A stretch of DNA of 21,986 nucleotides from a virus. The translations under genes and the position numbers were made by a program. The notes beneath the pieces were generated by a model that did no database searches, had not been told where the DNA came from, and was given only the letters and a program-made list of their open reading frames with translations. The stretch lies in the IMG/VR virus record IMGVR_UViG_3300009079_000147, positions 1-21,986 of that record, one strand, 5' to 3'. The stretch's first letter is position 1; each line of letters begins with the position of its first letter. This document shows, piece after piece, positions 11,107 to 12,376 of the stretch.

Positions 11107-11154
11107 TTTAGGTTACAGAGGAGTATTTAGAAAGGTTTGAATCCTTTCCTGAAA
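11107..11154 (+). other. T-arm-like RNA element
   Basis: GAAAGG (11130-11135), TTTGAAT and CCTTTC (11143-11148) form a hairpin very like a tRNA T-arm. TTTAGG (11107-11112) can pair with the following CCTGAAA (11148-11154) with one bulged G, as a short acceptor stem. There is room for a D-arm but none for an anticodon arm. The segment after it (11155-11203) carries D-arm and anticodon-arm-like sequence (TAGCTAAGCTGTGTAAAGCG, then CAGA/TCTG closing ACTTATAA). This is a rearranged or decayed tRNA cluster, or a new fold. Confidence 0.3.
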
Positions 11155-11203
11155 AATAGCTAAGCTGTGTAAAGCGTCAGAACTTATAATCTGTTAGAAG
11201 CTA

Positions 11204-11261
11204 AGTCAGGTGAATTGGTTCGGTAGTTTACTACAAGTGGGTTCAACTCCCACCCTGACTA
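11204..11261 (+). ncRNA. tRNA-like element without anticodon arm
   Basis: A perfect 7-bp acceptor stem, AGTCAGG (11204-11210) with CCTGACT (11254-11260), and a perfect T-arm GTGGG-TTCAACT-CCCAC (11237-11253) that fits the TTCRANY loop consensus are present. A D-arm-like segment AATTGGTTCGGTAGTT lies between. Only about 8 nt remain where the anticodon arm and variable loop should be, so it cannot read codons as a normal tRNA. The layout recalls the tRNA-like domain of tmRNA, and a tmRNA lies 100 nt downstream. It could be a decayed tRNA or a functional mimic. Confidence 0.5.
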
Positions 11262-11271
11262 CAAAAAAATC

Positions 11272-11360: not shown

Positions 11361-11763
11361 GGGGGTGACATGGAATTGATTGCACATGTTACTTATTAAT
11401 GTTCAGCCCAGAGAGATAACTGGTTAAAACTAAGGTGAATCATTTTAAATGGAAACACAAACGAGAATGCCCAAGTACGAGCTAATATGACTGTTGTTCA
11501 CAACATCCTTAATGGAGAAGTTTCTGCTTCAAGAGAAGTAGAGTTAGCTGTGGCTGCCTAACCAAAGACTAGGTGATTGAGTCAAACACTGGCTGACTAT
11601 AAAAATTGCCATAGAAGACTTGTATGTTACTTTAAAAACATTCTGGTGGATGTCTTCTTAATAGTTGACCCTTTGTAACGTAAAGAGTTTAAACAAACGT
11701 AAAGCTGTATAAAACATTGATAATGAAGTGTGTAAGACAGGAGTTCGACTCTCCTCACCTCCA
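11361..11763 (+). ncRNA. ssrA: tmRNA (transfer-messenger RNA)
   Basis: tmRNA rescues ribosomes stalled on broken mRNA and tags the nascent chain. The 5' end GGGGGTG pairs over 7 bp with CACCTCC (11756-11762), followed by discriminator A; CCA is not encoded. The T-arm AGGAG-TTCGACT-CTCCT (11739-11755) is canonical, and no anticodon arm exists. TATTAATGTT near 11390 pairs with AACATTGATA near 11714 to give P2. The likely resume codon is GCT at 11481, with UA at -5/-4 as in other tmRNAs. The frame then runs 26 codons, ending E-L-A-V-A-A, and stops with TAA at 11559-11561. A pseudoknot follows (GAAGAC 11614 with GTCTTC 11652; GTTAC 11626 with GTAAC 11675). Host SmpB would be needed, since none is seen here. 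A start at the in-frame GAG 18 nt earlier is a less likely alternative. Confidence 0.92.
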
Positions 11764-11791
11764 CTTCCACAAAAATAACTGAGCACTTCCA

Positions 11792-11842: not shown

Positions 11843-12376
11843 ATGGAAAAGTATAAAAGAAAACAAGAAGAAGTGCAATGTTGTTATTGTAAAACAATCT
11901 TTAAGAAAGATATATCTGAGATAAAGAGAAGTTTAAAAGTAGGTAGATTACATTATTGTTCAATGAAGTGCTCAAAGAGTATTCCTTCTAATATAGAACA
12001 TTTGAACAAAGTTAATCCTAGAGATGCTACTCATCTTATTGCTAATAATAGAAGAGATGAGTTTAGTGACTTTAGAGAGCATCTAAGAAGAGCTAGTAGA
12101 AGAAACAAGTCTTTTGACTTATCTTTACAAGATTTAAAAGATCAATGGGATAAACAAAAAGGTTTGTGTGTATATTCTAAGGTTCAACTTATACATCCTA
12201 CACCAGGATCTAATTCTCATTTATACACAGCAAGTGTAGATAGAATAGATTCTTCATTAGGATATGTAAAAGGTAATGTGCAGTTTATAAGCATTGCTAT
12301 GAATCATATGAAAGCAAATATGTCTGATGAAGATATGTTTAAGTTATTAGCAATATTAAAGATAGCAGTTACTTGA
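11843..12376 (+). CDS. HNH-type homing endonuclease
   Basis: The 177-residue protein has an N-terminal Cys cluster CCYC (13-16) with YCSMKC (38-43) that probably binds zinc. The C-terminal half follows the phage HNH pattern: GLCVYSKVQL, then SVDRIDSSLGYVKGNVQFIS, then NHMKANMSDEDMFKLL. In this subfamily the first HNH histidine is replaced by the D-R-I-D arrangement, and the final Asn-x-x-Lys is kept. Such free-standing enzymes cut a specific phage or host site and spread by homing. It lies directly downstream of the tmRNA locus with its own promoter and is followed by a folded RNA and terminator, so it looks like an inserted unit. Its target is unknown. Confidence 0.8.
   Translation: MEKYKRKQEEVQCCYCKTIFKKDISEIKRSLKVGRLHYCSMKCSKSIPSNIEHLNKVNPRDATHLIANNRRDEFSDFREHLRRASRRNKSFDLSLQDLKDQWDKQKGLCVYSKVQLIHPTPGSNSHLYTASVDRIDSSLGYVKGNVQFISIAMNHMKANMSDEDMFKLLAILKIAVT

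Follow-up and report, generated by a model that had tools for sequence, protein, structure and literature searches.

The tmRNA gene and its neighbours

The window, that is, the whole stretch of DNA analysed here, is a virus record of 21,986 bases, with a portal, a large terminase, a DNA polymerase and a helicase that have matches among phage families. Its terminase is closest to that of Leptolyngbya phage Lbo-JY46 (40%) and next closest to those of Cellulophaga phages phi17:2 and phi4:1 and of gut crAss-like phages, a kinship that marks the window as a crAss-like relative. The initial annotation had placed a tmRNA at 11361–11763, and two programs bore this out: ARAGORN reported a tmRNA at 11361–11764, and the Rfam tmRNA model RF00023 aligned end to end (model positions 1–374) at 11361–11766 with a score of 81.9 bits, above the gathering score of 47 (E 1.1e-30). 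The one-piece gene, on the plus strand, is a genuine phage-borne copy of bacterial tmRNA.

The gene opens with the 5′ acceptor strand GGGGGTG (11361–11367), which carries the G3 of the G3-U70 alanine signal. It closes at 11739–11763 with the T arm AGGAG-TTCGACT-CTCCT (11739–11755), the 3′ acceptor strand CACCTCC (11756–11762) and the discriminator A (A73, at 11763); CCA is not encoded. The acceptor strands, T arm and discriminator stand in the sequence exactly where the gene ends and T arm had been drawn at the outset. Among the pseudoknots PK1–PK4, one covarying hairpin at the PK1 position was resolved in the family; in the window it occupies 11408–11423, with the stem CCAG/CTGG and the invariant loop AGAGATAA. 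The interval between hairpin and tag holds the conserved strand AACTAAGGTGA (11428–11438), which is common to most family members. A scan for promoters and terminators gave matches no more numerous than expected by chance.

Comparison with relatives and the Rfam alignment place the putative resume codon at GGA (11451–11453): parsed relatives start with GGA, GGC or GAC after a TAA and two variable bases, and the GCA of the Rfam model aligns where this GGA stands. From there the frame common to the relatives runs to a TAA stop (11559–11561) and encodes a tag of 36 residues, GNTNENAQVRANMTVVHNILNGEVSASREVELAVAA (11451–11561 with the stop). Both the 32 residues read by ARAGORN and the 26 codons counted initially are partial readings of this tag, for which the end ELAVAA had been given correctly. 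With its 36 residues and VAA end, the tag does not fit the short ssrA type of about 10 residues ending in LAA. A Caulobacter tag that ends in AVAA is mentioned as a lead only.

Upstream of the tmRNA, at 11153–11203, lies AAATAGCTAAGCTGTGTAAAGCGTCAGAACTTATAATCTGTTAGAAGCTA, a conserved, roughly 50-nt element that is probably a small structured RNA. Another 15 phage loci, of which two nearly match the window, also carry it, 136–617 bases before the tmRNA motif, and it is often identical where the flanks differ. A tRNA-like element at 11206–11265 has acceptor, D and T arms and lacks an anticodon arm. It is probably a remnant, since in locus L083 the same 50-nt element is accompanied by a tRNA(Leu)-like form that is longer and shares the acceptor stem of the shorter one. 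Loci L086 and L091 have tRNAs with odd anticodon loops, and in L014 (3286–6973) twenty consecutive tRNA genes lie downstream of the tmRNA. Directly after the tmRNA of the window comes an HNH endonuclease gene (11843–12376; phrog_3322, E 1.4e-21), preceded by TATATTTG, which resembles Bacteroidota promoters. This endonuclease might help to spread the tmRNA region between phages.

A tmRNA family in viruses of Bacteroidota

A similarity search with the tmRNA matched Cellulophaga phages phi14:2, Calle (Calle_1), phi38:1 and phi40:1 as well as Flavobacterium psychrophilum phages of the Fpv (Fpv1) and FPSV groups. The isolate carriers span at least two unrelated phage groups, phi14:2 belonging to Crassvirales and Calle and phi38:1 to Pervagoviridae. 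Rfam scores were 87.6 bits for phi38:1, 86.6 for Calle, 58.2 for Fpv1 and 46 for phi14:2, the last lying under the cut-off of 47. Among the isolate records opened, a tmRNA is annotated in Calle only, with none in phi14:2, phi38:1 or Fpv1.

We scanned for an RNA motif common to the isolate tmRNAs, AGAGATAACTG-n-AACTAAGG. It was present in at least 119 viral stretches in IMG/VR, at least 117 of them genuine. In 84,980 species genomes of bacteria and archaea none of its matches was genuine; this one strict motif covers tmRNAs with this hairpin and not the same core behind another hairpin. Two bacterial and two viral matches (L126, L127, L058 and L101) were discarded as chance, with no tmRNA at those sites. 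An independent scan for the peptide core of the tag found 60 loci, 29 of them on new contigs, and the RNA motif or a variant preceded the tag in 55. The remaining five comprise L178 and L187, which score above the Rfam cut-off, the ARAGORN tmRNAs L182 and L183, and L152, which is cut by a contig end. When the lists from both scans were counted together, at least 146 viral contigs carried a family tmRNA. One phage contig of 105 kb holds two near-identical tmRNAs (L195, 871–1271; L205, 1397–1776), which agree almost fully in tRNA domain, hairpin and core and diverge in the tag's C-terminal part and in the stretch that follows it.

Among the matches listed, A73 was found in all 73 distinct full-length genes and G3-U70 in 72, the one exception looking like a frame mis-set by the parser; 22 of 123 loci, some at contig ends, stayed unparsed in this acceptor analysis. 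Within the acceptor and T stems, 8 of 12 pairs showed changes on both sides and no pair was broken. Since the parser demanded a minimum of 6 of 7 acceptor pairs and 4 of 5 T pairs, the percentage paired is partly built in, but this filter does not dictate how varied the pair types are. The hairpin before the tag has changes on both sides in each of its four stem pairs and an unchanging loop, AGAGAUAA; most of the rows compared were taken from the peptide scan, and they were chosen by the loop, not the stem. At the level of sequence, the kept G3-U70 and the compensatory stem changes argue for a working RNA.

With the canonical one-piece tmRNA (RF00023) the family shares tRNA-like ends, G3-U70, a T arm, a resume codon, a stop-ended tag frame and an xAA end. 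It differs in its long tag with a conserved internal core, in the AGAGAUAA hairpin that replaces a recognisable PK1, and in the low Rfam scores of several members, such as phi14:2. Phage tmRNAs have been reported in mycobacteriophages and Bacillus phage G (PMC4131195), in OM43 phage Melnitz together with a survey of 402 phages (PMC9004378), and in Cellulophaga phage Calle (PMC8776804), which is a member of the present family. In their accessible text, these reports cover presence, origin or gene form, and no conserved long tag is described there; nor did we find a description of the long-tag family or its tag in the literature searched, whose coverage is thin for subscription journals. The window tmRNA is a member of this large family, which viruses of Bacteroidota carry and which is apparently undescribed, with a tag about three times the usual length and a conserved, predicted helix.

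The tag and its conserved core

The 78 distinct complete tags among the matches listed are 24–49 residues long (median 35); in the tmRNA database, tags of 10 residues are the most frequent (PMC11915505). All but one of them share the core Q-[VI]-x-A-N-M-x-x-V-x-x-[LI]-[LI], with ANM in 77; in the window the 13-residue core is QVRANMTVVHNIL, at 11472–11510. The core is followed by a variable segment and usually by an xAA end. In the same set of listed matches, 41 tags end in VAA, 10 in IAA, 9 in LAA, the common end of ssrA tags (PMC9382460), 6 in MAA and 12 in other ways, and an xAA end was present in 72 of the 78. One family tag, GNIDNDAQEVVDINYTFSTPMMVVHKGERKSVSPSQDLSWGTRQVAIAA (L038, 2559–2705), is without the ANM core.

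The initial annotation had linked the lack of leucine at position −3 in the window to slower ClpXP recognition. This proposal is unsupported, because the absence of that leucine is the family norm, VAA being the commonest end. Its broader claim, a phage tmRNA with an unusual tag, stands; what makes the tag unusual is its length and the conserved internal helix, which had not been isolated there. The general form of the slower-recognition idea is that the tag protects or sorts chains instead of marking them for degradation. A long helical tag is indeed unlike short degradation tags, and some members end in VGV or MVA. However, the xAA end of ssrA tags is the part read by ClpXP and is retained in nearly all family tags, and the −3 leucine is rare family-wide and so no special feature of the window, which makes protection or sorting in place of degradation quite improbable.

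Across the 65 distinct nucleotide sequences that encode the core, Q, A, N and M were invariant and V changed once, while codons varied at the third base (Ala GCT/GCA/GCC/GCG, Asn AAC/AAT and Val GTA/GTT/GTG); pS was 0.67 and pN 0.26, in related sequences that are not independent events. The core was kept in L178 and L187 though the RNA hairpin there is replaced. These alignments show the pattern of a selected peptide. That the core is instead conserved as an RNA element, or that the gene was left behind when a prophage integrated into host ssrA, is scarcely credible: tmRNA genes are frequent integration sites (PMC11590407), but third codon positions vary while the residues stay, the genes are full length, and the motif is without a genuine match in the species genomes scanned.

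The same conservation bears on whether the gene is a plain backup tmRNA, which would supplement host rescue with a lengthened but otherwise ordinary degradation tag whose core has no function of its own. A complete tmRNA with an xAA end would suit such a role, as would the general proposal that phage tmRNAs maintain hijacked machinery (PMC9004378). We nevertheless consider it unlikely, since protein-level conservation of the core extends over many divergent phages, two unrelated groups and two kinds of PK1 region, while the flanking parts of the tag vary freely.

AlphaFold2 modelled residues 7–20 of the tag as a helix with moderate to good confidence (mean pLDDT 86 for the block 11–20) and the rest as mostly loose. 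In this model, the hydrophobic core positions 2, 6, 9, 12 and 13 would share one face of the helix. Outside the tags, the core was found in no other protein of about 1.08 Mb of loci. A profile of the tag had no match among solved structures and gave scattered weak matches only in Pfam, none of them convincing.

Predicted use of the tag during infection

No SmpB above the cut-off was found in 36 carrier records, and host SmpB would therefore serve. The same 36 records yielded no SspB and no ClpP above the cut-off, with one weak ClpP-like match in G009. The lack of a phage SmpB would imply competition for the host protein, as expected of an inhibitor or decoy of host trans-translation, a role with a precedent in the proposal for the tag-less DS6A tmRNA (PMC4131195, PMC11915505). 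A conserved, selected tag frame with a stop would be pointless in a decoy, however, and we regard this reading as very improbable.

The reading we favour, and hold to be probable, is that of a functional one-piece phage tmRNA that rescues ribosomes during infection and adds a phage-specific three-part tag with a predicted core-binding partner. By analogy with known tmRNA biology, host alanyl-tRNA synthetase would charge the RNA, the host CCA-adding enzyme would complete its 3′ end, host SmpB would load it on ribosomes stalled on broken messages, and translation would resume at the GGA at 11451 and end in release. Less certainly, the xAA end would act as a ClpXP-type degradation signal, a partner, which is probably a protease, adaptor or chaperone of the host, would bind the internal helix, and phage-tagged chains would thereby be treated in another way than chains that carry the host tag. 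We found no protein common to phi14:2, Fpv1, G008 and Calle. Because Calle and the three crAss-like carriers compared share none, a host factor is a likelier partner than one encoded by the phage, although a small or divergent phage protein would escape such a comparison.

It is possible, if doubtful, that the helix is a new trans-translation signal that recruits a specific host factor, in which case every chain that the phage tmRNA rescues would receive a fate that the host tag does not confer while the C-terminal part diversifies. That fate may be a different protease, protection or sequestration, and the contig with two tmRNAs (L195/L205) would exemplify the diversification. A precedent for a tag that switches handling is the longer ssrA tag of the Mollicute Mesoplasma florum, which is read by Lon, a non-ClpXP protease (PMC9382460). 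It differs from the family tags in lying on a bacterial chromosome, in lacking the Q-x-x-A-N-M core and in its NYAFA end, which is absent from all family tags among the matches listed.

Proposals in the accessible literature for phage tmRNA are the upkeep of hijacked ribosomes or the recycling of host proteins. Present annotation misses the tmRNA gene in the phi14:2, phi38:1 and Fpv1 records, and the long tag could become the basis of a degradation or sorting tag for use in Bacteroidota. Because the family tag is long and has a conserved helix, these phages probably label stalled proteins otherwise than their hosts do, a contrast with the host ssrA tags of Bacteroidota that draws on general statements about tags. 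A core held by selection across many phages indicates that the tag, and not rescue alone, matters to these viruses.
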